Assembly (NCBI GenBank): GCA_017504435.1
Contig: JAFVRD010000043.1
Coordinates: 1-42,642 of the forward strand
DNA length: 42,642 bases
Direction: 5' to 3'
Source: Lentisphaeria bacterium
Lineage (GTDB): Bacteria > Verrucomicrobiota > Lentisphaeria > Victivallales > Victivallaceae
Part shown: one piece after another, positions 19,200 through 40,957 of the stretch
Layout: each line of letters begins with the position of its first letter
Position numbering within the stretch: position 1 is the first letter of the stretch
Notes under the pieces: generated by a model
The model's input: only the letters and a program-made list of their open reading frames with translations
Told to the model about the DNA's origin: nothing
Database searches by the model: none
Position numbers and translations under genes: made by a program

Positions 19200-20021
19200 A
19201 TGCCGGAACTGCCGGAAGCAGAAACTATCGGCAGAGCTTTGGAAAAAGTTCTGTGCGGCAGAAAAATATGTGCCGTCGAGGTGTTCACTCCTGCCATGCG
19301 GAGTGCTTTGACCCCGCTTGAACATGCCGGTTTGCCCGGACGCAGGATCGTGTCGGTGCGCCGCCGGGGACGGTATCTGACTGCGGCATTGGATGATAAC
19401 CGGGGATTGCTGATGCATTTCGGGATGTCCGGAGTGGTGCGGGTGGAAAGCGGTGATGTGCCCAGACGCAAACATGAACATGTATTTATTCATTTGGATG
19501 ACGGTAATATTTTCCGTTTTGAGTGTACCCGCAGATTCAGTTTGCTGGAGGTGCATGAATTGACCGCAACCGGATTTCCTGCGGTATTGGATCAGCTGGG
19601 CGTGGAGCCTTTAAGCGGGGATTTTACAGGAGAATACCTTGCCAATGCTTTCTCCCGCCGGAAAATTCCGGTAAAGGTCGCTTTGATGGATAATGCCATT
19701 GTTTGCGGGATCGGCAATATTTATGCTACTGAAGCTCTCTTTGTCGCCGGGATCGACCCCCGGCGTGCTGCCGGAGAGGTGAGTGCTGCAGAGTGCCGTC
19801 GGATCGTTGCTGAAGCGGTACGGATATTGCAGGAGGCTATTATCTGCGGAGGAACTACGATCTCGGACTTCAAGAGCGTGGACGGCAGCGAAGGGAAATT
19901 TGTACAGAAATTGCAGATATACGGTAAACGCGGTGAAGTTTGTCCGAGATGCGGGGAGATCATCGACAGTTGTCAGCTCGGCGGCAGGACCAGTGCTTTT
20001 TGTCCGGGGTGTCAGAAATGA
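19200..20021 (+). CDS. mutM: Formamidopyrimidine-DNA glycosylase
   Basis: Removes oxidised purines (8-oxoG, Fapy) and cuts the abasic site. The 273 residues begin with PELPEAE, which fixes the start and supplies the catalytic Pro and Glu. Also seen: RRRGRYLTAAL with the conserved Lys region, LLMHFGMSGVVRV, ALMDNAIVCGIGNIYATEAL (helix-two-turn-helix), and a C-terminal zinc finger with CPRC and CPGC near residues 247 and 268. The gene opens a six-gene operon that ends with the AddB-AddA fusion, so DNA repair functions stand at both ends. The stop overlaps the next gene as ATGA. Confidence 0.93.
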   Translation: MPELPEAETIGRALEKVLCGRKICAVEVFTPAMRSALTPLEHAGLPGRRIVSVRRRGRYLTAALDDNRGLLMHFGMSGVVRVESGDVPRRKHEHVFIHLDDGNIFRFECTRRFSLLEVHELTATGFPAVLDQLGVEPLSGDFTGEYLANAFSRRKIPVKVALMDNAIVCGIGNIYATEALFVAGIDPRRAAGEVSAAECRRIVAEAVRILQEAIICGGTTISDFKSVDGSEGKFVQKLQIYGKRGEVCPRCGEIIDSCQLGGRTSAFCPGCQK

Positions 20022-23207: not shown

Positions 23208-26200
23208 ATGGCAAAACGTTTTTTTATGGGCAGCGATAAATTTCTGCCGGAATTGATCGCTGAAAATATACTTGCCGGATATCAAAGCGGTACGGCACCG
23301 GATCTCGGTAATATCCTGTTGACTCTGCCCGGAAAACTTGCCCGGCAGAAAGTTACCGCGCAACTGGCAGTAAAAGCTGAGCACGGGGTACTGCTGCCGC
23401 AAATACTCACTCCGTCACAGCTTTTGCGTTACAATACGGAACAATCAGGTCTGCCGCCGCCCATGGCAGATGAATTATTATGGATGCAGACCGTAAAAGA
23501 GGCAGTGCGGACACCGGAAAAATTTGATCTGCTTTTTTCTGAAGTATCTCCTCCCGGAGATCATTTGGCTGCCGGACGTAAATTTCAGGCGTTGCGTAAT
23601 GAAACTTCCCGCGGCGGTATTTCTCTGGCTCAGCTTGCTCCTTTTGCCGGGGAAAGAGGCAGTCAGCTTGCCGAACTGGAAAAAATATATCTGCGGCAGC
23701 TGGAAAAGGCGGGGTATTCCGATCCGCTGGCTCTGGATCTTCTTGCTGCCGGAGATATTACGGCATTTGTTCCGGGCATGAAAATCATCATTGCCGGTAT
23801 TCCCGATATGCCCAATATGCTCCGGAAAAAACTGGAGAATATCGACCGGCTGTTCCCGGATATGATCGAAATCTGGATCCATGCTCCGGAGACGCAGCAA
23901 CATGAATTCGATCAATGGGGTGTGCCGATCGCCGATATATGGCTCAATAAACCGCTGCTGCTGCCGGAAAACAGCTGGCATTTGGTTCTCAATCCGGCGC
24001 AAGCGGCATATTTTTCAGCACATCTGGCAGTGAAACACGGCAGCTTTATGCCCGAAAAATGTGCTGTAGTACTCAGTGATCCGGAGATGACCGGAGTGTT
24101 CCGGACGGAATTCGGCAAATTCACCGATCCGCAGGGTAATCCATTGGAAGTTTTTGATCCCTCCGGAGTTCCGATGCGTAAGCTCCGGCTGTGGCAGTTG
24201 GGACATAAGTTGTGTGCATTGCTGAAAAATGATGGGGATTTTACCTGTGCAGTTGAATTGCTCCGTTCTCACGATTACATGCTGCATTTGGGGACGGCGG
24301 CGGAAATATTACCGGCATTGGATGAGTTTACAGCCCGGAGTGTTCCTGATGATTTGGCGCAGGCGGTGATCCTCGCGGAAAATGAAAATTTAAACCGTTG
24401 CGGCAGCGGAATAGTGAAAGCTGCATTGAAAGAACTCTGTAATTGGCAGAAACTGCTCAATGCGTTGAGTGTTCCGGAATTTCTGCGGGAATTTTTCCGT
24501 ACCGTTTATCCGGAAACGTTGGCTATCGACAATGAATCAGTTGAGCAGGTTCCGTTTGCCGCAGAGTGTGCTGTTTTCCGGAAACAGCTGGAGGAGTTTG
24601 AGTCCATCCCGGGAAGTGTGACCGGATTGGGCAGCAAACTGCAATTGCTGGAAATATTTTTCAATCGCTGCGGCAATGCTTCAGTTGCCGCCGTTCCCGG
24701 GAATAATGCTTACGATCTGGAAGGGTGTCTGGAGATGCCGTTTCTGGATGCTGAACAGATCATTTTCTGCGGACTGAATGATAAATTTTTCCCGGATCGT
24801 ATTGATACGACTCCGTTTCTTACTGATTCCATCCGCCGGAAAGCCGGATTGCGGAGCAACCGTGAAACCGGGGCGCGGGCGCGTTGTCATTTGCAAAGTG
24901 TGCTGGAATGCCGGAAGTCCGGGAATGTGGATTTCCTGATCTTGCGCCGGGATGAAACCGGGGACGTACTGCGTCCGTCAACTTTACTTTTTGCCGGAGA
25001 TGCTTTGCCGGAACATGAGTTGATGACCCGTTGTGATCTGCTTTTCAAAGACCCGGACATATTGCCCGAAGTGGCCGGAATATACGGGAAAAAACAATTC
25101 CGTCTCCTGCCGGAATTGGATTGTCTGCGGGAAAAAGATTCCGGTTTGCCGCGGTTATCGCCCACATTTCTGGATGATTATCTGACTTCTCCATATCTTT
25201 TTTACCTGCGGAGAGTCCGGCAGGCAGAAGTTGTTGAATATTTACGTGAAGAACCGGATGCCCGGCTGTCGGGTATTTTACTGCACCGGGCGGTGGAGCT
25301 GCTCGGAACGGCGCATTTTACTTCTGCGTCGGCTTTGGAAAAGGCTTTGGAGCGCAATTTTGACCGGGCACTGGCAGAACGTTTCGGTGAACCGCCGCAT
25401 CCGGTTCTGATCGGGCTGCTGGCTGATAATCTGCGGCAGCGTTTGAAGCCGGCAGCTGAATTGTTGTTCCGGGAACAGTGCCGTGGATTTCAGCCGCTGG
25501 CGCATGAATATAAATTGGAAAATGTGGAACTTGCCGGAGCATTATTTTCCGGAAAAATAGACCTCATTGAATATAATCCCGGCTTGAACATCCTGCGTAT
25601 CGTGGATATGAAAACCGGCAAATACGAGCCGGTGGCAGATGCACATTGCAAAAAATCCGGAGCAAAAATCGAATTTCACAAATTACAGCTGCCGCTTTAT
25701 GTTCTGCTGTTGAAAAGCGATCCCGGATTTCGGGAAAAATTTCCGGAGACTGCCAATGCCGGTTTTGAATGTGCTTATCTGAATTTACCGCAGAGTGTTA
25801 CTGACAGTTGTCTGGAAGTCTGGAATACGGAAGATTTTGAAGCTGTCCTGCCTGCGGCATTGGAAAAAACCGCTCAGATCATTGCCGGAATTTTGAATTT
25901 CCCGGAACATATATTGTCTGAAAATCCCGATAAATTCCGGAAAAACCGCAAATGCAAAGATTGGCATTTCCTGTTCCCCGGCGGGATGCGTAACGGAATT
26001 GCCGGTGTGAAATGGGATGAGCCGGAACCTCCATCTGCCGGAAGTGATTCTGCGGAGGGCAGGAAAAAAAAGTCGGTCGAAGCGGAAATCGTCACCCCGG
26101 AAACACTGGTCATCCCTGCCGCTCCGGAAAAAATATGCCGCTGTTGTGATTGTCCGGAATCCCGGCGGCAGAACTGCAGTTGTTTTCACGGGATGTCCGG

Positions 26201-29200
26201 AGATTGCAAATCTTTCAACGGATTCAAGTGTTTCAATGTCATTACCGCCTCTGCCGGTACCGGCAAGACCACCCGATTGGCAATGCGTTTTATCCAATTG
26301 CTTGCTTACGGTGCCGATCCGGCTCAAATCATGGCGGTGACATTTACCAAAGATGCCGCCGGAGAGATTTTTGACAGCATTATCAAATGGCTGCTGACAT
26401 TTGCCGGGGGAGCGTGTGATATGAATTGCCGCCAGCTTGACCGGCACGCGGTGCTGGAGATATTGCGGAAGCTGCTCAACAGTGAAAAAGAGCTGCAAAT
26501 CGGTACGATCGACAGCTTTTTTATGAAACTGGTCACGATTTATGCACCGGAATTAGGTATCTGGGGAGATATTTCGGTAACTGACCAGAAAGATTTGCGC
26601 CGGATCCGGCGCACGATCCGGGAATGGATCCGGGAGGTTTCCGGTTCCGGACAGCTCGATACGCTGCGGGAAATGCTCAAAAGTGCCAATGTCAATGAGA
26701 ACCGGGGCTTCGCCGGGAGTCTGTTGGAGATATTGAAAGATGTTTATCCATTCTACTTGACCAAAGTGCGTCGGAGCCGGAATAATATCATGCCGCAATT
26801 GGAATATTTCCCGTGGTCCCCTGATGTCGGAGAGCTGCTCGCTCCGGAAACACTGGAAAATATTTCTGATGCATTACGGGAGTTTGCCGGACAGCTCCGG
26901 GCGGAGGCTGATTTCGCCAAAACTGCTGTGGCAAAAAGTATGCGTCTGTGCGCCTCAAAAATGGAAACATTGGCAGATTTTCTGCCGGTTTCGCTGGCAG
27001 AATACGGTAAACTTGATGATGTGGTAAATGACTTTTTTGCGAATATCCTGGAGCGCAACGGTGAAAATTGGAGTTATTCGGAAGGTGAATTGTTTTATAC
27101 GCAGAAATTGACCTTCCCCCCGCTGTGTTCCGATTTGATCCGCAAGGCTTTCCGGCATATCCGGACCCGGGAGTTCGGTTTTGCCCGGCGCAAGACCCGG
27201 GCGGTTTTCGGTATGATGGAGGCGTTTGACAAAGTCTACAACAGTTTGGTGCGCAGTGCCGGTAATCTGACATTTACCGATCTGCCTTATCTGCTTTGTC
27301 ATTTTGACCCGGCGACCAGTGAAGCTATTCTCGGTCAGAGCGACCGGAGCATGGAAGCCAGACTTGATAACGAAATAAACCATTACATGTTCGATGAATT
27401 TCAGGATACCAGCGATATCCAGTATCAGGCTTTTGACGGTCTGATAAAAGAACTTGTCTCCGGTGAATCGGATCGGTTCAGATCGTTTTTCTGCGTGGGA
27501 GATATCAAACAATCCATTTATCAGTGGCGCGACGGGGATCCGGCACTCTTTGCTTACCTGCTGAATATCCTCGCTCCGGCAGCTGAAAAAAGAGGATATG
27601 ATCCCCGGGAATCGCTGACGCTATCTTTCCGGACATGTCAAAGTATTCTCAATACCGTCAACCGGATATTTGCTCCCGGTTACAGCGGGGAGCTGCCGTT
27701 TTTTGCTGATGCGGTGAAAAAAATGCAGTTTGAACCTCATTCTGCCGCCAGAAATATGGAGGGGTTTGCCGCATTGATAGAGTATGCCAAAGAGCCCGGA
27801 CGCGATACGGTGTTTGTATCCGGCAAAGCCAAAGTGATCTTTGATATCATCCGGGAGATCAACCCTCTGAAAAAACATCTTACGGTCGGTGTTCTGGTCC
27901 AGAAAAATGATACCGTTGAAGCATTTGCTGAAGAACTGCGTACATTGGCAAGAGATGCCGGATATGAATTGCCGGTTTCAGCCGACGGGGTGGTGACGAT
28001 CAGCGACAGCATGGCATTTAATGTGTTCCGCTTTATGCTGATACTTGCCGGACATCCGCAGGACACGCTGGCAAAAGAATTTCTCAATACCGTCACTTTT
28101 GATCTGCCGGGAACTGCGCCGCAGGCGTTGGGGATGGACGAGATCGCCAAAAAAATGGGATTTCCCAAAGAAGTTGCGCTGGATGAGTCCGTACGTCAGG
28201 AGATATTCCACAGCGGTATCGCCGGAGTTGCAAAACGGTTTATTGACGGATTCGGCGCGGAAATGACCCCATACGACCGCAAACGTATGGAATCAGCATG
28301 GCATGCTGCCGGCAAATTTTCCGGTACACCTGAGGAATTCATAGAGAATATTGACATTCTCAGCAGCAAAGAAGCGGCTTTGGACAATACAATTCAAATC
28401 ATGACATTTCACCGTTCCAAAGGGTTGGGATTCGATATCGTATTCCTGCCGGATACGGCAACTCCTGCCGGACGCGGCGGCAGTACGCTACTGCCGGAGG
28501 TCATGAGCATGGATATGGATATGAATAACGGAGTGTTGCCGGAACCGGAGTGGATAAGTTACCTGCCCAGAACCGGTATCACCGGTGAAGTGCCGGTATT
28601 CGCGGATAATGAACGGATGAAAAAAGCTGCCAAGGCATTTGAAAGGTGCTGCGCATTGTATGTTGCATTGACCCGGGTCAAGCGGGCGTTGTATGTAATA
28701 ATTTCACCCGGCAGCGGTTCTACCGGAATGGCCCTGGATCAGATCATGCTGGAAAGACTCCGGGGATTCGGACCTCAGGCGGCAGACCGCGAATGGTTTT
28801 CCGGAGTTCAGGAACGCACCGGTCTCGGTGATCGGCTGACATTGCATTACTCCTGCGGCAGAGAATCATGGCACGGACTGATCCCGGAGTACCGGGATGA
28901 TGTCCGGGAGATACCGGATATCCCGCGGGAGATCGCCGGCGGTGCCGGAAATGAAAAAATAATTCACGCATCCGAAGAAAAATCTTCCGTAATCAGCCCG
29001 GAACGCCGTTTCTCAACTGCCGGGGGAATGACGGTGGGCACCGGTATCCATGAGCTTATGGAGAAAATCATCCGCATTGAAGCATCAAGTTGGGATGCGG
29101 GGGAATTCTGCCGGAAAAATTTGCCGGATTCTCCTTATGCTCCGGTGATCCGCAATATTTTTTGTACCGCATTGGCTCCGGATTCAGAAATTTTCACCAT

Positions 29201-29510
29201 GCTCTGCAATGTCGATCCGGAGTGCGAAGTGTGGAACGAACGCCGTTTCATGGTCAATGTTTCCGGTTTGGGGATGGTTTCCGGAGCATTTGACCGGGTG
29301 GTCATCCGCCGCGATAACGGCGTACCGGCCGCAGCAGAAATATTTGATTGGAAAAGTGATGATCTGGCATCTCCGGAGCAGTTTCTCTGTTACGGGGAAC
29401 AGTTGCGGATCTACCGTCGCGCTCTGGCGCAGCTGCTGAATTTGCCGGAAAATTCGATCCGGGCAAATATATGTGCATTAAAGCTGAAAAAAATAATATT
29501 TGTGGCATAA
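23208..29510 (+). CDS. Single-chain AddB-AddA-like helicase/nuclease (2100 residues)
   Basis: Repair of double-strand breaks by end resection. The N-terminal half (1-1000) is AddB-like: it has no Walker A, but shows IIFCGLNDKFFPD...LTDSIRRKAGL and a PD-(D/E)XK nuclease (LHRAVELL, GKIDLIEY, IVDMKTGK with D800 and K802). The C-terminal half is AddA/UvrD-like: Walker A ASAGTGKT (1014-1021), VTFTKDAAGEI, DEFQDTS (from 1396), GDIKQSIYQWR, LSFRT, MTFHRSKGLGFD, YVALTRVKRALYV, and a second nuclease EIFDWKSD (D2047, K2049). The two halves are normally separate proteins. The motif before the first nuclease reads TSPYLFYL where AddB usually has CPF, so the Fe-S cluster is probably lost. A Cys-rich linker (near 975-1000) joins the halves. 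It starts 22 bp after the PqqD/S26 gene. Confidence 0.92.
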   Translation: MAKRFFMGSDKFLPELIAENILAGYQSGTAPDLGNILLTLPGKLARQKVTAQLAVKAEHGVLLPQILTPSQLLRYNTEQSGLPPPMADELLWMQTVKEAVRTPEKFDLLFSEVSPPGDHLAAGRKFQALRNETSRGGISLAQLAPFAGERGSQLAELEKIYLRQLEKAGYSDPLALDLLAAGDITAFVPGMKIIIAGIPDMPNMLRKKLENIDRLFPDMIEIWIHAPETQQHEFDQWGVPIADIWLNKPLLLPENSWHLVLNPAQAAYFSAHLAVKHGSFMPEKCAVVLSDPEMTGVFRTEFGKFTDPQGNPLEVFDPSGVPMRKLRLWQLGHKLCALLKNDGDFTCAVELLRSHDYMLHLGTAAEILPALDEFTARSVPDDLAQAVILAENENLNRCGSGIVKAALKELCNWQKLLNALSVPEFLREFFRTVYPETLAIDNESVEQVPFAAECAVFRKQLEEFESIPGSVTGLGSKLQLLEIFFNRCGNASVAAVPGNNAYDLEGCLEMPFLDAEQIIFCGLNDKFFPDRIDTTPFLTDSIRRKAGLRSNRETGARARCHLQSVLECRKSGNVDFLILRRDETGDVLRPSTLLFAGDALPEHELMTRCDLLFKDPDILPEVAGIYGKKQFRLLPELDCLREKDSGLPRLSPTFLDDYLTSPYLFYLRRVRQAEVVEYLREEPDARLSGILLHRAVELLGTAHFTSASALEKALERNFDRALAERFGEPPHPVLIGLLADNLRQRLKPAAELLFREQCRGFQPLAHEYKLENVELAGALFSGKIDLIEYNPGLNILRIVDMKTGKYEPVADAHCKKSGAKIEFHKLQLPLYVLLLKSDPGFREKFPETANAGFECAYLNLPQSVTDSCLEVWNTEDFEAVLPAALEKTAQIIAGILNFPEHILSENPDKFRKNRKCKDWHFLFPGGMRNGIAGVKWDEPEPPSAGSDSAEGRKKKSVEAEIVTPETLVIPAAPEKICRCCDCPESRRQNCSCFHGMSGDCKSFNGFKCFNVITASAGTGKTTRLAMRFIQLLAYGADPAQIMAVTFTKDAAGEIFDSIIKWLLTFAGGACDMNCRQLDRHAVLEILRKLLNSEKELQIGTIDSFFMKLVTIYAPELGIWGDISVTDQKDLRRIRRTIREWIREVSGSGQLDTLREMLKSANVNENRGFAGSLLEILKDVYPFYLTKVRRSRNNIMPQLEYFPWSPDVGELLAPETLENISDALREFAGQLRAEADFAKTAVAKSMRLCASKMETLADFLPVSLAEYGKLDDVVNDFFANILERNGENWSYSEGELFYTQKLTFPPLCSDLIRKAFRHIRTREFGFARRKTRAVFGMMEAFDKVYNSLVRSAGNLTFTDLPYLLCHFDPATSEAILGQSDRSMEARLDNEINHYMFDEFQDTSDIQYQAFDGLIKELVSGESDRFRSFFCVGDIKQSIYQWRDGDPALFAYLLNILAPAAEKRGYDPRESLTLSFRTCQSILNTVNRIFAPGYSGELPFFADAVKKMQFEPHSAARNMEGFAALIEYAKEPGRDTVFVSGKAKVIFDIIREINPLKKHLTVGVLVQKNDTVEAFAEELRTLARDAGYELPVSADGVVTISDSMAFNVFRFMLILAGHPQDTLAKEFLNTVTFDLPGTAPQALGMDEIAKKMGFPKEVALDESVRQEIFHSGIAGVAKRFIDGFGAEMTPYDRKRMESAWHAAGKFSGTPEEFIENIDILSSKEAALDNTIQIMTFHRSKGLGFDIVFLPDTATPAGRGGSTLLPEVMSMDMDMNNGVLPEPEWISYLPRTGITGEVPVFADNERMKKAAKAFERCCALYVALTRVKRALYVIISPGSGSTGMALDQIMLERLRGFGPQAADREWFSGVQERTGLGDRLTLHYSCGRESWHGLIPEYRDDVREIPDIPREIAGGAGNEKIIHASEEKSSVISPERRFSTAGGMTVGTGIHELMEKIIRIEASSWDAGEFCRKNLPDSPYAPVIRNIFCTALAPDSEIFTMLCNVDPECEVWNERRFMVNVSGLGMVSGAFDRVVIRRDNGVPAAAEIFDWKSDDLASPEQFLCYGEQLRIYRRALAQLLNLPENSIRANICALKLKKIIFVA

Positions 29511-34000: not shown

Positions 34001-35260
34001 TTATGCAAAAAAGAACTTTCTGGCAGTACTGCTGCCGTCAGAGAGTTCAGTCAATGCCCACACCAATGCGTCCATGCGGTCGGGGGATTTACCGGAATTT
34101 ACCGGAGAATAACTGCACATTTCCTCCTCCAATTCCGGAAAATTTCCGGCGTGATGGACAATGCCTTTTTCATAAAGAGCCGCTATCGGTTCGGCGCGGA
34201 CAAGTTTGCCTCTGGAGGCACGTACCGCTTTGAAAGCAAGATCCCGGTCTGTTCCATTCAGCAGTGCCGCCACCAATTCCCCGCCGTTATTGACCTCTGC
34301 CACGACCCGGTCGGCGGCGAATTGATGATAGAGTTTGCTCACCTCTGCCGCCCATTGGGCAGGAGAACCTCTCATGCTCCGGTCGGCAAGGATATAATAT
34401 TCACCGTCGGTTCCCCGGGCGGCGGCGACAATACCGGTCAGATCACTGCCGCTGTTCCCGGTCACGGCGGGATCGACTCCGATGACGATGCGGAGCAATT
34501 GAGGCAATGCTGTGACCCGGTATGGTGAGATCATATCCATTTTCCAGAGGGAATTTTCATTTTCATCGAGCCATTGCCCTTCCAGAAAGCGTGCCCGCTG
34601 GCGGCGCGGCAGGCTCCGGAGGGTATTTTCGATATAGTCATCCGGCAAATTTTCCCGGTTTGCCGCCGGATTGATCAGCATGGCGGCATAATCATCCGGA
34701 TTTACCAGCGCGGTTCTGTCGATGGGATTGAGTTTTTCCATGAATACCCGGTATGTCCAATGTCTGCGTCCGGGGGGATTGCAATCGTAAAATGCTTTAT
34801 TGACCAATGTCGGCACATTCTGAGCCAAACGGGTCAATGCCGTCTGCACCCCGGAATACTCCAATTCAGAACACTCATTGAAATAAACAGTAGCGAATTC
34901 TTTACCCAGAATTTTATCAGCACGGTCAGCTTCATCCAAGCCGATAAGCCAGATCTCGGAATTATTGGCAAACCGGAAAACCCCTTCGGTGCGGTTGAAA
35001 TTCCAACGTGCCTTGTTGAATCTGCGCTGTAAAACTTTAGGCATGGTGTCATTGCCGATCGAGTTGCGGCAGCTCCGGCAGTGCCGTCTGATTACCGCAT
35101 GACGGCTGCCCGGAGCGCGCAAAGCCCGTGCCGCCAGCGCACAGCACAAAACAAAACTTTTACCGGAACGGGAGCCGCCGAAAAGCATGATGTGATGTGC
35201 CGGTGACGCCAGCAGTTTTAACGCATCCTGCTGGGCGGCGGTATAGGCAAAACGGGTCAT
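34001..35260 (-). CDS. Phage terminase large subunit
   Basis: A 419-residue packaging motor. The ATPase domain has Walker A GGSRSGKS (28-35), Walker B ATVYFNE (123-129) and the coupling motif YDCNPPGRRHWTY (158-170). The nuclease domain has GVDPAVTGNSGSD (D263, D273), VVAEVNNGG (E322) and SPDRMDALVWAL (D394, D397). All catalytic residues are present, so the enzyme looks intact. It is the last gene of the minus-strand operon, an unusual place: terminase large genes normally precede the portal. The start overlaps the previous gene by ATGA. Confidence 0.93.
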   Translation of the reverse strand: MTRFAYTAAQQDALKLLASPAHHIMLFGGSRSGKSFVLCCALAARALRAPGSRHAVIRRHCRSCRNSIGNDTMPKVLQRRFNKARWNFNRTEGVFRFANNSEIWLIGLDEADRADKILGKEFATVYFNECSELEYSGVQTALTRLAQNVPTLVNKAFYDCNPPGRRHWTYRVFMEKLNPIDRTALVNPDDYAAMLINPAANRENLPDDYIENTLRSLPRRQRARFLEGQWLDENENSLWKMDMISPYRVTALPQLLRIVIGVDPAVTGNSGSDLTGIVAAARGTDGEYYILADRSMRGSPAQWAAEVSKLYHQFAADRVVAEVNNGGELVAALLNGTDRDLAFKAVRASRGKLVRAEPIAALYEKGIVHHAGNFPELEEEMCSYSPVNSGKSPDRMDALVWALTELSDGSSTARKFFFA

Positions 35261-35754
35261 TTTTTCACCTTTTCGGCAGCCCGCCGGCGCAGAAAATTCT
35301 GTCTGGCATCAGAAAGTTTGTAGAGCGTATTGCGGAACAGGGCAGATAATTCCGGATGTGCGCCGATGATCTTCATCATTTTGCGGTGCATCGCCTGCCG
35401 CGAACAGCCGCGCAGACGGCTCAAATAAGGAATGGTGCAATGAACCCCCGGTTCCTGAGGTTTTATCACTTCAGCGATAATGGCAAGCGTATAGGTGTCA
35501 AGATCCAGCAGATAGCGGAAAAAACTGCTCAACGCGGAAATGATTTCTGACGTTTCGCTTTCAGAGCAGTTTTCTTCACCGGGGATATGGTCATTGTCCG
35601 CAAAATCCATAAAATCCTGTACCGCTTCAAAACTTACCAGATGTTCCCGGCGGTCGGAGGGTTCTCCGGTGCGCTGACAATAACGGCAGGAAAGTACATA
35701 ATCACAACTTTTACAGGCCGGACTGCCTTGTGTGAAGTTTCCAAAACATTCCAT
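35257..35754 (-). CDS. Small Cys-rich DNA-binding-like phage protein
   Basis: A 165-residue protein. The N-terminus has two CxxC-type pairs (CKSCDYVLSCRYC), possibly binding zinc. Near residues 105-130, TIPYLSRLRGCSRQAMHRKMMKIIG looks like a helix-turn-helix. The last residues are basic (FLRRRAAEKVKK). It overlaps TerL by four bases, so it may act with TerL in DNA recognition or be a regulator. No family is recognised with confidence. Confidence 0.55.
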   Translation of the reverse strand: MECFGNFTQGSPACKSCDYVLSCRYCQRTGEPSDRREHLVSFEAVQDFMDFADNDHIPGEENCSESETSEIISALSSFFRYLLDLDTYTLAIIAEVIKPQEPGVHCTIPYLSRLRGCSRQAMHRKMMKIIGAHPELSALFRNTLYKLSDARQNFLRRRAAEKVKK

Positions 35755-35777
35755 GATATAATTGATTCCTTTGCAGT

Positions 35778-36257
35778 TTAACCGCGCGACAAAGTCAGTG
35801 TCGGAAGGATTTGCGGTTGAAGATTGTTGCTATTGCTGTTGTTGTTACTGCCATTATTGCCGCTATTGCCGTTGTCATCATTATCCGGTTGAGTACCGTC
35901 GGTATCAGATGACATGTTTTCCAGCAGCGGCTTAAGCAGTGCCGCGGCACGGATGCACAGCGGAGTCAGCCGTTCACGGTAAACGCGTTGATTTCCGGCA
36001 GAATTTTCCCGGGCAATTATATCTGCTGCCCCGGTCAAAACTGTCGGATTGAGCAGTAAATATACACTTTGTTCGGCAATGGCGGCGGTGACAGTTTCCA
36101 GAATAGAATTCTGAATTTCTGCATAATTCAGTGCCGCCATCACATCTCTTTGAGCGACCGCCATTGCGCCTTTGCGGTCGGATTCATTAAAACTGAAATA
36201 TGCTTCTTTCAGTGGATGAATGTTGAAAAAATTGTCGATGTCATTTATAGTGGTCAT
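35778..36257 (-). CDS. Possible head-tail connector-like phage protein
   Basis: A 159-residue protein. The N-terminus is helical (FFNIHPLKEAYFSFNESDRKG, then AVAQRDVMAALNYAEI) and resembles small gp6-like adaptor proteins in layout, but not decisively. The C-terminus holds an Asn/Gly/Ser-rich linker (about 120-145, DNDDNGNSGNNG and after). GGAG lies 9 bases before ATG. It follows the major capsid gene and a hairpin. Position suggests a head-completion function; the evidence is only positional and compositional. Confidence 0.4.
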   Translation of the reverse strand: MTTINDIDNFFNIHPLKEAYFSFNESDRKGAMAVAQRDVMAALNYAEIQNSILETVTAAIAEQSVYLLLNPTVLTGAADIIARENSAGNQRVYRERLTPLCIRAAALLKPLLENMSSDTDGTQPDNDDNGNSGNNGSNNNSNSNNLQPQILPTLTLSRG

Positions 36258-36285
36258 AACGGAAAACTCCGGTTCAAAAGGGATA

Positions 36286-36319
36286 TTCCGGGTTCTGCCG
36301 TTGAAAACAGAACCCGGAA
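36286..36319. terminator. 12-bp hairpin after the major capsid gene
   Basis: TTCCGGGTTCTG (36286-36297), 10-base loop, CAGAACCCGGAA (36308-36319): a perfect 12-bp stem between the capsid gene stop (36337, minus strand) and the next start (36257). No long T tract follows on the minus strand, so it may be a partial terminator or an RNA-stabilising structure that raises capsid mRNA relative to downstream genes. Confidence 0.6.
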
Positions 36320-36336
36320 AGTGAATTCATTAAACG

Positions 36337-37491
36337 TCAGCCGCGCAACGCTTTGATCGCTGCATCACTGCCCAGCAGATTGCTGATCCGGCAGACCCGC
36401 TGTTTGATATTTTTGAATTCAAACGTCAATTCACCGATCGCCACCCGGCGGATACCGTCGAAACCTTTGGGAGTCGCATCGGTATCGGTGATCGCGCGTC
36501 CGGCGAGATTGGCAAGTGCAAAACAGGCGGGATCAAGCACCCATGCATCGGTGTCCGGTACATCCGGATCGGCAAGGATGGTCATGCCGCGGCCGTTGAT
36601 CTCATTGACGATAACTGCCACATAAGCCCCTCTGCGGTCATCGGAACGCAAAATCTGCATGCGGTCACGGAATTCATTGGAAATGACCCGTGCCTGACCG
36701 GGAGAGCAGAGGATCTGCATGGGATCTCCGCCTTCACCAAGCAGTGCCTGGGCGGCATCATTGATGATGAACGAGTCCAGATTTTTTCCGGCAGCATCGA
36801 TTGCCGGTACTCCGGCGGCAGTGCCGAAATAATAGAGACCGCCGGCTTCACCGCGGATCCCGGCAGCGGCTTCCACCCGGCGCCCGAAAAGAGCCACCCG
36901 GTTGAGGTCGCGGGCAAGATCCGCCAGTGCAAAGGCAGTTTGGCGGTTGAGCTGGTCATCCGCATTGCCGTAAAGACTTACCGCCAGCGCACTGCCGGAA
37001 AGCACGATCTCTTTGCGGAAGATCTGAGTGGCGTTCCACTGGGTGCTGCCGAGAGAATAGTTCTCCTCTCCGTCGCCGTTGCCGCTGCCTTCAGACATGG
37101 GAGTTGATACGATGATGAAATTGCCACCTCCGGCAGGAAGTGAATTCACATCAGCAAAACCGGACCCGTTTGCAGCGGCAAGGATCACCGTGGCAGAAGT
37201 GTCGTTGACGGCGGTGACTTTGAAAAGTCCCGGATCATTTTTCAATGCGATCAATGTGCCCACCCGCAGTTTTGCGGCATCTCCGGCTGAAAGAGTCAGT
37301 ACACCATTGGCAATCGCCGAAGCAGTGATACTGCGGCCGGTGAGCAGATCTTCCCAATATTCGTGTTTGCGGGAAGTTGCATCCGGTGCGGCGCGGAAAT
37401 TGGAAATGAAACGGGGTTCATCTTTGATCACCGTGGACATGACTCCGGCGAGATCGCGTTTACGGTCAGCAAAAGTATAACTGTAAAGCAT
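36337..37491 (-). CDS. Major capsid protein, SU10/DUF5309-like
   Basis: A 384-residue HK97-fold capsid candidate. The start RKRDLAGVMSTVIKDEPRFISNF followed by TSRKHEYWEDLLTGRSITA matches the opening of SU10/DUF5309 capsid proteins. The mid-region STQWNATQIFRKEIVLSGSA, then YGNADDQLNRQTAFALADLARD, is the family core. ATG 37491 has an AAAGG-type Shine-Dalgarno sequence; the frame is open further upstream, but those residues (many Cys and Arg) are not capsid-like. The order portal, scaffold, capsid fits tailed-phage modules. No prohead protease is seen, and none is obviously fused here. Confidence 0.85.
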   Translation of the reverse strand: MLYSYTFADRKRDLAGVMSTVIKDEPRFISNFRAAPDATSRKHEYWEDLLTGRSITASAIANGVLTLSAGDAAKLRVGTLIALKNDPGLFKVTAVNDTSATVILAAANGSGFADVNSLPAGGGNFIIVSTPMSEGSGNGDGEENYSLGSTQWNATQIFRKEIVLSGSALAVSLYGNADDQLNRQTAFALADLARDLNRVALFGRRVEAAAGIRGEAGGLYYFGTAAGVPAIDAAGKNLDSFIINDAAQALLGEGGDPMQILCSPGQARVISNEFRDRMQILRSDDRRGAYVAVIVNEINGRGMTILADPDVPDTDAWVLDPACFALANLAGRAITDTDATPKGFDGIRRVAIGELTFEFKNIKQRVCRISNLLGSDAAIKALRG

Positions 37492-37541
37492 GAAATTTTC
37501 CTTTTCTGGTTTAATTGTTCTGGTTAAAGGGATAATTATTT

Positions 37542-38000
37542 TCAAAGTGCATCCGGCGCATCGCTGATACTGGCAGCGATAGAACCGATCCGGTCGCACG
37601 GATGGGTTTCCCTGCCGGCGGCACCGGGCAGGGAGACAGGGACACTTCCGGCAGAGCTGCCGGGAACGATATGCGCGGTGAAACATCCGGGGGAACTTTG
37701 AGCAAGTTCGGCGGCAAATTTGCGCATTGCCTCATCGTCGCCGGTATCGACATTGCTCCGGCGGGCGCAGAATTCCAGATAATCGGGGTCGGTACAGTGG
37801 AGTTCGCGGCACAACTCTTTCATTCTGCGTTCATGCCGGAGCTGATCCAATTCCCGGCGCAGAGTGTCGCACTCGTGCTGCAAACTATCCACGGCATCCC
37901 CGGAGATCCGGGAGAAGTCGAAGTTTTCCAGTTCTGCTTTTTCCAAGGCGTTGAGTTCTTCGTTATTGAGCAGTTTCTGTATGGTATTTTTCAGATTCAT
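37542..38000 (-). CDS. Phage scaffold-like protein
   Basis: A 152-residue protein. The first 75 residues are strongly helical and charged (NEELNALEKAELENFDFSRI, then DSLQHECDTLRRELDQLRHE), predicted coiled coil. DPDYLEFCARRSNVDTGDDEAMRKF follows, then a Gly/Pro/Ser-rich tail. This resembles small scaffold (GP20-like) proteins and lies between portal and capsid, where scaffold genes occur. ATG 38000 follows GAGG; an upstream in-frame ATG at 38048 is in the portal gene and is rejected. It overlaps the portal 3' end by 38 bases. Confidence 0.6.
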   Translation of the reverse strand: MNLKNTIQKLLNNEELNALEKAELENFDFSRISGDAVDSLQHECDTLRRELDQLRHERRMKELCRELHCTDPDYLEFCARRSNVDTGDDEAMRKFAAELAQSSPGCFTAHIVPGSSAGSVPVSLPGAAGRETHPCDRIGSIAASISDAPDAL

Positions 38001-39378
38001 TATTTTTATCCTCTTTGATTTCGTTGATGATCCGGTTTTTTTCCTCATTGCCGACTCCGCCGAGATTGGCGAGCAATTCCACGGCGGTTTTGCCGATGGC
38101 GCGATGGTAGGCTTTTCCGGCGGGGATCTCTGACAACTGCAGTAATCCGGCGATACCGGATGCCAGATCGGTTACCGCGAATTTACGGTTGTAATGGATC
38201 TCCGGCATGGGCATATCCAGGTCGTAACGCTGCATCAAGTGCCATGCATCCAATTCGCTTTGTTCAAGCAATTCAGCGCGTTCAGCCAGAAATTGGCTGA
38301 TATTCTGGAAGTCCCATGCTTTGGATTCGGCACTTTGCCCGTAATTGCGGCTGTTTTGTACAGCCAGACCGACGATATCATATAATTCCTGTTTGAGATA
38401 GCGGTTTTCATCCCGGATCGCGGAAGTTGTCACTCCCGAAGGGCTGATGTAACGGCTGATACCTTTTTCATCGACTGATTCGACAATGGCGGCACTGCGG
38501 GCGACGGTTGCGGAAAAATTTTCTGCAGCTCCGGCAGCATCGGATATTTTCTGGGCACTGCGGGCAAATGAATCAGATACCACCAGCATGCCGAACATCT
38601 GTTTAACGGTATTCATCTGGGCTTCGGATTCATTATTGAGGATCGCCTCGCTGATCCGGACGACATCTTCAAACCAGTGATTTGCCGCCAAACCGAAACC
38701 ATCCGGTTCGACTACCGGGATAAGCGGTACACATCCGGTAGGGTTGACTCCGCCGGCGATCTCTTTGACGGTACCTGAAACATTTTCATACAGAGACCAG
38801 CTTTCCCGGCGGTAAAGCCGTCTTCTTCTGACCCGTACCGGCGGCGAGAATGGATCATCGGCATGGTAATCCTCCTCCAGCGTCAGAGCCCAGAGCAGTT
38901 TACCGTCATTGCCGTATGCCCAATCGACTACTTTCAGCGGGGATAACGCCCGGACATAGGGGCGCAGCCGGAGCCGCCGGGCTTCAGCGCGGCTGGGAGT
39001 GCCGGTGAAACAGGGCATATCCACTACCAGCCATGCTCTGCCGTAGACATTGAGCAGTGTGGACAATTGCCTCATCACGTCATTGGTGCTCAGCCCGGTA
39101 CGGCTCCAATCCTCCACCAATTCTGTGCCGGCGTTGTAGCGCACCGGTTCAACGCTCAGAGCATACTGGGTGATCCGTCTGGCGATGGCACGGGGATAAT
39201 TGAAGTAGTACGCACGGCGGCGGCGTTCAGCAAATTCCAGATCGATTTCAGAAACGTGGCGGATCAATGCCTGTTCAATGTATTCCCTGCCGCCGGAATA
39301 AGCATCGGAAGAACGTTTCCAGCGGCGTTCATTGGCGGCATATTCCGGATGCCGGCGGTGAAAAATAAAGTTGTTCAT
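37963..39378 (-). CDS. Phage portal protein, DUF4055-like
   Basis: About 471 residues. The opening FIFHRRHPEYAANERRWKRS, then GREYIEQALI and RRRRAYYFNYPRAIARRITQYAL, follows the DUF4055 portal-like pattern (HPEY, W, D, G, later a phase with a F/Y-rich repeat). A long central helix AESKAWDFQNISQFLAER is portal-like. The start is taken as the second ATG (39378), as GGAG overlapping the first ATG (39390) is well spaced for it. The portal would join the capsid vertex to the packaging motor. It overlaps the scaffold gene. Confidence 0.75.
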   Translation of the reverse strand: MNNFIFHRRHPEYAANERRWKRSSDAYSGGREYIEQALIRHVSEIDLEFAERRRRAYYFNYPRAIARRITQYALSVEPVRYNAGTELVEDWSRTGLSTNDVMRQLSTLLNVYGRAWLVVDMPCFTGTPSRAEARRLRLRPYVRALSPLKVVDWAYGNDGKLLWALTLEEDYHADDPFSPPVRVRRRRLYRRESWSLYENVSGTVKEIAGGVNPTGCVPLIPVVEPDGFGLAANHWFEDVVRISEAILNNESEAQMNTVKQMFGMLVVSDSFARSAQKISDAAGAAENFSATVARSAAIVESVDEKGISRYISPSGVTTSAIRDENRYLKQELYDIVGLAVQNSRNYGQSAESKAWDFQNISQFLAERAELLEQSELDAWHLMQRYDLDMPMPEIHYNRKFAVTDLASGIAGLLQLSEIPAGKAYHRAIGKTAVELLANLGGVGNEEKNRIINEIKEDKNNESEKYHTETAQ

Positions 39379-39432
39379 AAGTTTCTCCATAAATGCAGTA
39401 TACTTGATGTCTTTGAAAACATAATTTACGGT

Positions 39433-39666
39433 TTACAGAGCCATTTCTTCCTCTGAAAACTCGATCGGGGAATCCTCTGCCGGGGCATTACGGTTGCGTT
39501 TCCAGCGGTCGGGACGGCGGTTTTCCAGCCAGTACATGGCGGCGCGGATATCCGGAGGAACAGATTTGCCTGAAGCATCCTCGTAGCCGGTAGCTCTCTG
39601 GAGCAGGGCATTTTCGACCAGATCATCCAATGCGTCGCCGGAAGGTTTTTTCTTTTTTGGTGCCAA
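39433..39666 (-). CDS. Short TerS-like protein with TTG start
   Basis: A 77-residue protein starting at TTG 39666; AAGGAG lies 7 bases before it. The sequence ENALLQRATGYEDASGKSV followed by PPDIRAAMYWLENRRPDRWK matches the C-terminal half of small terminase subunits (GYE...PPD..A..WL.NRRP..W). The N-terminal DNA-binding HTH of normal TerS is missing; instead the start is Lys-rich (APKKKKPSG). It may be a trimmed TerS, with the Cys-rich protein beside TerL supplying DNA binding. It precedes the portal gene. Confidence 0.6.
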   Translation of the reverse strand: MAPKKKKPSGDALDDLVENALLQRATGYEDASGKSVPPDIRAAMYWLENRRPDRWKRNRNAPAEDSPIEFSEEEMAL

Positions 39667-39805
39667 TTTGAGTTCTCCTTTCCGGTTTCCGAGTTTGCGG
39701 CATTTGGTAAACCATTTGTATTACACTTTGCAGCAAAACCAGTCCTTTCCAGGAGTAAATTCTGCCTGAAGCAGAAGTTACCGGGTCACTTACGGTAAAT
39801 TTCAT
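39623..39805 (-). CDS. Possible 60-residue leader protein of the structural operon
   Basis: A short frame beginning MKFTVSDPVTSASGRIYSWKG, with GGGAAG 5-6 bases before ATG 39805 and about 35 bases after the predicted promoter. It runs 44 bases into the TerS-like gene. The C-terminus is very basic (TKKEKTFRRRIG) but overlaps the next Shine-Dalgarno. It may be a real small protein or simply an open frame; no homology is recognised. Confidence 0.35.
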   Translation of the reverse strand: MKFTVSDPVTSASGRIYSWKGLVLLQSVIQMVYQMPQTRKPERRTQIGTKKEKTFRRRIG

Positions 39806-39846
39806 CTTTCTTCCCTTTTGATTTTTTAGAAGTTGACTGGAGGCAG

Positions 39847-39875
39847 AATATTTTTTGTTGATTGCATCCGTGCAA
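39847..39875 (-). promoter_or_regulatory. Predicted promoter of the phage structural operon
   Basis: On the minus strand TTGCAC (39870-39875) and AATATT (39847-39852) with a 17-base spacer. The -35 lies inside operator O1 (39861-39876), so repressor binding would block it. Confidence 0.5.
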
Positions 39876-39876
39876 T
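39861..39876. promoter_or_regulatory. Operator O1
   Basis: A perfect palindrome of form ATTGCANNNNTGCAAT. It overlaps the -35 of the structural promoter. Confidence 0.65.
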
Positions 39877-39902
39877 TATCGGAGACAAAAAAATTCAGCC
39901 CG

Positions 39903-39922
39903 ATTTTTATCGCGACAAAAAT
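39903..39922. promoter_or_regulatory. 20-bp imperfect dyad between operators
   Basis: ATTTTTATCGCGACAAAAAT is a palindrome with one mismatched pair, centred between O1 and O2. It differs from the ATTGCA operators, so a second factor may bind. Confidence 0.35.
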
Positions 39923-39929
39923 CAATATA

Positions 39930-39945
39930 ATTGCACGCATGCAAT
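39930..39945. promoter_or_regulatory. Operator O2
   Basis: A perfect ATTGCANNNNTGCAAT palindrome, 69 bp centre to centre from O1 and 54 bp from O3, between the divergent promoters. Confidence 0.65.
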
Positions 39946-39983
39946 TTTTCAACCCCGAAAATAAAAAAATTTTCAAAAAATTG

Positions 39984-39999
39984 CTTGCATGCACGCAAT
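39984..39999. promoter_or_regulatory. Operator O3
   Basis: Matches ATTGCANNNNTGCAAT at all but two positions (C at position 1, C at position 11). It overlaps the -35 of the repressor promoter, suggesting autoregulation. Confidence 0.5.
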
Positions 40000-40013
40000 T
40001 CACGTATTATATT
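39985..40013 (+). promoter_or_regulatory. Predicted promoter of the S24 repressor
   Basis: TTGCAT (39985-39990) and TATATT (40008-40013) with a 17-base spacer. The -35 falls in operator O3. GGGAGG (40040-40045) and ATG 40052 follow. Confidence 0.6.
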
Positions 40014-40051
40014 AATCTCTGTTCTGAAAAAAATTAACCGGGAGGCTGATA

Positions 40052-40957
40052 ATGAGGATAGATGAAAATATATTGCATGCGTTGAGAATGGCAGTTGCGG
40101 AATCCGGCGGGGCGAAAGAGTTTGCCGCCCGGTGCGGAGTAAGTGCCTCGAATATATCCCGTTATTTGAGTGGCAAAGTACGTTCCATTACCGATGACTG
40201 CTGGGAGAAGCTTGCCGGTGAATTGTCGGTACATCAGCCGCATTCGGCTCCGGGAACGATCACCAACACCCCGGAATTACGGGAATATTTGCGGGAAAAT
40301 ATGTCGAAATGCGGCATGGAGAGTTACGATCAGCTCCGGCGGGCGGCCGGTTACGATTCGCCGCAGACGATCCGTCGATTGTTTGACGGAGAGCTGAATT
40401 GGTTTCCGGATCTGCTTTCTGCGGTGTTTGATGCCCTGGGCTGTGACCGGGACGGTGCGCCGTTGAGTGCCGCCGAGAAAGAATTGCTTGCTCCCGGCGG
40501 TATGTACCGGGACGGAGCGATGCTGGTGCGCCCGGTGCCGGTGGTGGACTGGGCTAACGCCGCCAGCCATCTGGAAAGCATGGAGTCCGAGGGAGTGCTG
40601 TTGAAAAACTGGGATGTGGAAAATACCGAAACCGTGCCGGTACCGGTGGGTTCCCGCCGTGACACCAGTGCGTTCCGGGTGCATGGGATATCTATGGAGC
40701 CGAAAATAGTGGATGATGATATTGTGCTGGTGGAACCGGCGGCATCACTGGATGATATTCCGGACAACAAGATCGTGGTGGTACGCTTCAGCGACCGTTC
40801 CGGCCAGAGCGAAAAGGTGGTCTGCAAACGTTTCCGGCGGCAGAACAGCACCTCGCTGCTGTTGACCAGTGACAATCCTGAAGGCAAAATAATCCCGCTT
40901 GAGCCTGCGGAAATCGCCTGGATCGGGATCGTGGTCAAAAAGATCAGCGAAATGTGA
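40052..40957 (+). CDS. S24-family phage repressor (CI/LexA-like)
   Basis: A 301-residue repressor. The N-terminus GGAKEFAARCGVSASNISRYLSGK is a helix-turn-helix. A second HTH-like stretch (SYDQLRRAAGYDSPQTIRRL) follows. The C-terminal S24 domain has FRVHGISMEPKIVDDDIVLV with the catalytic Ser and KVVCKRFRR with the catalytic Lys. The cleavage region VPVVDWANAASH has Ala-Ala where Ala-Gly is usual, so self-cleavage might be slow or altered. GGGAGG 7 bases before ATG. Divergent from the structural operon, with operators between: a standard lysogeny-switch arrangement. Confidence 0.85.
   Translation: MRIDENILHALRMAVAESGGAKEFAARCGVSASNISRYLSGKVRSITDDCWEKLAGELSVHQPHSAPGTITNTPELREYLRENMSKCGMESYDQLRRAAGYDSPQTIRRLFDGELNWFPDLLSAVFDALGCDRDGAPLSAAEKELLAPGGMYRDGAMLVRPVPVVDWANAASHLESMESEGVLLKNWDVENTETVPVPVGSRRDTSAFRVHGISMEPKIVDDDIVLVEPAASLDDIPDNKIVVVRFSDRSGQSEKVVCKRFRRQNSTSLLLTSDNPEGKIIPLEPAEIAWIGIVVKKISEM

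Follow-up and report, generated by a model that had tools for sequence, protein, structure and literature searches.

The genome analysed here very probably encodes a natural single-chain AddAB, AddBA, which would resect double-strand breaks with its two halves docked as in the heterodimer, and which would have been fused once in a Lentisphaeria clade. The gene, addBA, occupies positions 23208..29510 (stop included) on the forward strand of the window, i.e. the whole 42,642-nucleotide stretch of DNA that was analysed. Its open reading frame starts with ATG and runs for 2100 codons without any internal stop, and the predicted 2100-residue product is a genuine fusion with AddB and AddA covalently joined. 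The initial annotation had placed AddB and AddA in one protein of this size, which is borne out by the intact frame and by its repetition in nine further genomes. The genome that carries addBA comprises 2.26 Mb and is 95% complete, and those of its relatives that have names are Lentisphaeria/Victivallaceae assemblies from metagenomes, with sheep colon or horse faeces as the source of several.

AddBA represents a known enzyme in a new architecture and not a new kind of system. Two separate polypeptides are the usual architecture of AddAB and no mechanistic requirement, and AddBA is classed as a fused AddAB variant. It shares with the Bacillus subtilis enzyme (PDB 3u4q, 3u44, 4ceh, 4cei and 4cej) the folds, the combination of one motor with two nucleases, and the Glu/Arg pair of the latch, but it consists of one polypeptide with a linker of approximately 40 residues, whereas B. 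subtilis AddAB consists of two polypeptides. No description of a fused AddAB, or of linked RecBCD subunits, was found in the openly licensed papers searched, and an earlier report elsewhere is possible.

The AddB and AddA halves

Domain searches with the fused protein identified the Pfam families PDDEXK_1 at residues 649-894 (4.8e-26), UvrD-helicase at residues 1010-1448 (5.1e-35) and UvrD_C at residues 1709-1833. Among the NCBIfam models, addB_alphas (TIGR02786) matched residues 650-806 in the first half, and AddA/RecB-like helicase models matched across the second half. The best models, TIGR02786 for the AddB half and TIGR02784 and PRK13909 (RecB-like/AddA helicases) for the AddA half, describe separate proteins, and all scores were well below the cut-offs. 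The equivalog cut-offs, which are set for particular clades, were 486.5 bits for addB_alphas (AddB half, 32 bits) and 860.75 bits for addA_alphas (AddA half, 168 bits).

The AddB half (approximately residues 1-933, 23208..26006; this and all features below are on the forward strand) was assigned an inactive UvrD-like helicase fold and a C-terminal PD-(D/E)XK nuclease on the basis of the AF2 model, matches to AddB chains and TIGR02786. The AddA half (approximately residues 1007-2100, 26226..29507), delimited from Pfam, a PDB profile match and the predicted model, was assigned as an SF1A helicase with a C-terminal RecB-family nuclease. When PDB sequences were searched by profile, AddA was the best match for the AddA half (1.2e-60). 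The corresponding search with the AddB half recovered no AddB, and structure comparison was therefore used.

The two halves were folded as separate models and the fit to AddAB was judged half by half, the AddB-half model (pLDDT 86.9) giving Z 19.7 and rmsd 6.3 over 844 aligned residues with AddB from the B. subtilis enzyme, AdnA and RecC ranking lower, and the AddA-half model (pLDDT 81) giving Z 24.1 and rmsd 14.2 over 806 aligned residues, nearly the full length, with AddA. The five top Foldseek matches of the AddB half were all AddB chains, and the structural matches of the AddA half were UvrD, AddA and RecB. The high rmsd of the AddA-half model probably results from domain shifts.

The earlier statement that all helicase motifs are present holds for the AddA half, in which motifs I, Ia, II (DEFQD), III, IV, V and VI are found at 26247..28694 and the set is complete from motif I (ASAGTGKT, residues 1014-1021) through motif VI (residues 1817-1829). 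It does not hold for the AddB half, since a motif scan of residues 1-930 found no Walker A motif, as is expected for an inactive helicase fold of the AddB type. AdnAB, built from two related chains with a nuclease in each, is similar in that arrangement, but its first half has a Walker A motif as well. Both of the claimed nuclease DxK pairs were located. In the AddB half the active site comprises G689..H693, D785, D800-M-K802-T and Q827..Y831 (25272..25700), and in the AddA half, where the nuclease signature is H1948/D2029/D2047-W-K2049, it comprises G1944..H1948, D2029, D2047-W-K2049-S and Q2065..Y2069 (29037..29420), all by motif alignment. The catalytic residues are invariant across an alignment of seven fused homologues.

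Unlike B. subtilis AddAB, AddBA lacks the four iron-sulphur cysteines of AddB: the first Cys is replaced by Ser, and the end of the AddB half contains no CxxCx(n)C pattern. The four-Cys iron-sulphur staple is found in AddB of the B. subtilis type and is a subtype feature. Alphaproteobacterial AddB is likewise not known to have these cysteines, so the staple would define a subtype and not the family.

The residues of the latch, on the other hand, are retained. In B. subtilis AddB the salt bridge of the latch is formed by E129 and R629 (PMC4824097). Their equivalents in AddBA are E132 (region 23586..23612) and R543, located in the latch segment FLTDSIRR (24816..24839), as assigned by sequence alignment. 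The E132 position is Glu in 14/14 aligned Lentisphaeria sequences, and the R543 position is Arg in every aligned sequence except one. This retention suggests that Chi response and coordination are possibly unaltered by the fusion, and it points weakly to Chi gating as in ordinary AddAB rather than to a changed one. That the join alters Chi recognition or coordination, as first suggested, is plausible.

In the mechanism that we propose, the AddA half would be the sole ATP-driven motor, of the 3'-5' SF1A type, and its C-terminal nuclease would cut one strand. The AddB half would act as an inactive helicase-like scanner equipped with the latch, and its nuclease would cut the other strand.

The join between the halves

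The halves are connected by a variable, charged/polar/Pro-rich linker (approximately residues 934-977, 26007..26138; from the alignment), which has the end of AddB (GI.W) on one side and a Cys-rich knuckle on the other. Among the fused proteins the linker is 38-48 residues long, is poorly conserved and contains 64-79% charged, polar, Pro or Gly residues, a character that would be expected of a flexible tether. The halves would dock as in the AddAB heterodimer with this tether of about 40 residues holding both, and as parts of one chain they would be present at a fixed 1:1 ratio and be more easily assembled.

The knuckle, CxCP(x6)CxC...C..FNGF (residues 978-1006, 26139..26225; from the alignment), forms the N-terminus of the AddA half, and in the more complete form R.C.CP(x6)C.C...C..FNGF it immediately precedes AddA motif I. 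It is an extra element compared with B. subtilis AddAB. A Pfam search with the knuckle gave no meaningful match, and it is a possible zinc or iron-sulphur site. Within the genus the knuckle occurs whether the genes are fused or split, the split loci L013, L014, L015 and L036 included, and is therefore older than the fusion; it is missing from all other members of the order and family that were examined. The linker and the knuckle could together make up a new element between the halves, regulatory or metal-binding in nature, by which nuclease coordination or the Chi response is tuned, so that the join itself would be functional, but we regard this as rather unlikely.

Two further observations concern whether AddBA acts as one chain. 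In the fused genes of genomes G010 and G020, no in-frame ATG, GTG or TTG occurs in the stretch that starts 110 codons ahead of Walker A and extends past it, and a complete AddA can therefore not begin there by ordinary internal initiation. The chain might also be cleaved after translation, in the exposed linker, the working enzyme then being an ordinary AddAB heterodimer. A variable linker of this length and composition would be accessible to proteases, but it contains no conserved cleavage motif, and the join is kept in all fused species although one stop and one start would separate the genes, as illustrated by the split relative G016, where a single in-frame TGA separates addB from addA. 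We consider cleavage improbable and favour the uncleaved single chain.

Genomic setting and role

The gene for formamidopyrimidine-DNA glycosylase (mutM) is located at 19200-20021, approximately 3 kb upstream of addBA. A prophage-like segment at 34001-40957 encodes a terminase large subunit, an SU10-type major capsid protein, a portal protein and a CI-like S24 repressor.

One AddA-class gene, addBA, was found in the genome carrying the window, and no match to RecC was found in this genome. Among the 34 genomes of the genus, genes of this AddAB-type family occur in 14 and RecC in 17, and none has both (hypergeometric 4.9e-7, shared ancestry ignored). Neither was found in three incomplete genomes, one of which has a distant AddA-like gene. 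At locus L060 (G007:C283) a distant AddA-like gene of high GC content has a separate 973-aa frame upstream; the genome has 6% contamination, and the contig is possibly a contaminant.

RecBCD, which alternates with the AddAB-type genes in the genus, has the same function, and the folds of RecB and RecC are related to those of AddBA. Unlike AddBA, RecBCD has three subunits with two motors and one nuclease, and its RecC, encoded next to RecB, is without an active nuclease, whereas the AddB half of AddBA retains the nuclease residues. The either-or pattern in the genus is in line with the reported rarity of genomes having both AddAB and RecBCD (PMC6452273) and points to AddBA as probably the housekeeping break-resection enzyme. 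It would resect double-strand breaks for RecA-dependent repair and would also degrade foreign linear DNA.

Since terminase, portal and capsid genes of a phage lie approximately 4.5-10 kb downstream of addBA, the fusion might instead be a helicase-nuclease of a defence system or mobile element. This is very improbable in view of the status of addBA as the only AddA-class gene found in a genome without a RecC match, the mutual exclusion of AddAB-type genes and RecBCD across the genus, and the mutM/lpxK synteny beside addBA, which is preserved in G010, the nearest fused relative.

Relatives and origin of the fusion

Nine further genomes from the genus carry the same uninterrupted frame, which there encodes 2083-2118 aa with no stops and 38-52% identity. 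The genomes with the fused frame stem from several projects and, as the contig names (NODE and k141) indicate, from several assemblers. Every genome concerned is a metagenome assembly, but with nine independently assembled genomes sharing the frame and a matching linker position, an artefact of assembly or sequencing that joined two adjacent genes, which the initial annotation had named as a possible refutation, can practically be dismissed. One genome, G012, contains two fused copies, one of which matches that of G020 in score and length; with 5% contamination in G012, one of its copies may be foreign.

Separate addB and addA genes in close relatives, also named at the outset as evidence that would speak against the fusion, were found side by side in four genomes of the same genus (G006, G040, G002 and G016). 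The two frames overlap in G006 and G040, in different reading frames, and in G002 they are 5 bases apart, again in a different frame. Gene order, Cys knuckle and catalytic residues in these four are as in AddBA, but the genes are two. In trees of ten fused sequences, the window's own included, the fused sequences form one clade with a bootstrap of 100, nested among the split relatives, and the concatenated, AddA-only and AddB-only trees agree. The four split genomes fall outside the fused clade and therefore serve to date the fusion and do not speak against it.

With the fused proteins in one clade within split relatives, the fusion most likely arose by a single event, in a single clade of gut Lentisphaeria that are uncultured, and as judged from the predicted proteins it is kept intact in about ten species. 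An adjacent addB-addA operon would have lost its gene boundary and gained the linker, and the joined gene would have been kept since.

No further AddB-AddA frame was found among 137 genomes of the order or among the matches listed from 388 genomes of the phylum, and none was found in samples of Planctomycetota (149), Bacteroidota (118) and Bacillota (119). Three candidates were rejected. The AddA frames of G207 (1812 aa) and G309 (1766 aa) owe their length to an extension upstream through GC-rich DNA, and AddB lies in a different frame there; the "2225" frame of G039 consists of two genes with stops between them.

A natural single-chain AddAB would mean that the heterodimer tolerates a covalent link from AddB to AddA, and that one lineage has long kept it. 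For structural and single-molecule studies, AddBA would offer an enzyme whose 1:1 ratio is obligate from the outset, and with pairs of fused and split enzymes inside one genus the effect of the join could be tested directly. Because close relatives in the genus have either AddAB-type enzymes or RecBCD, the two can also be compared in a natural setting.
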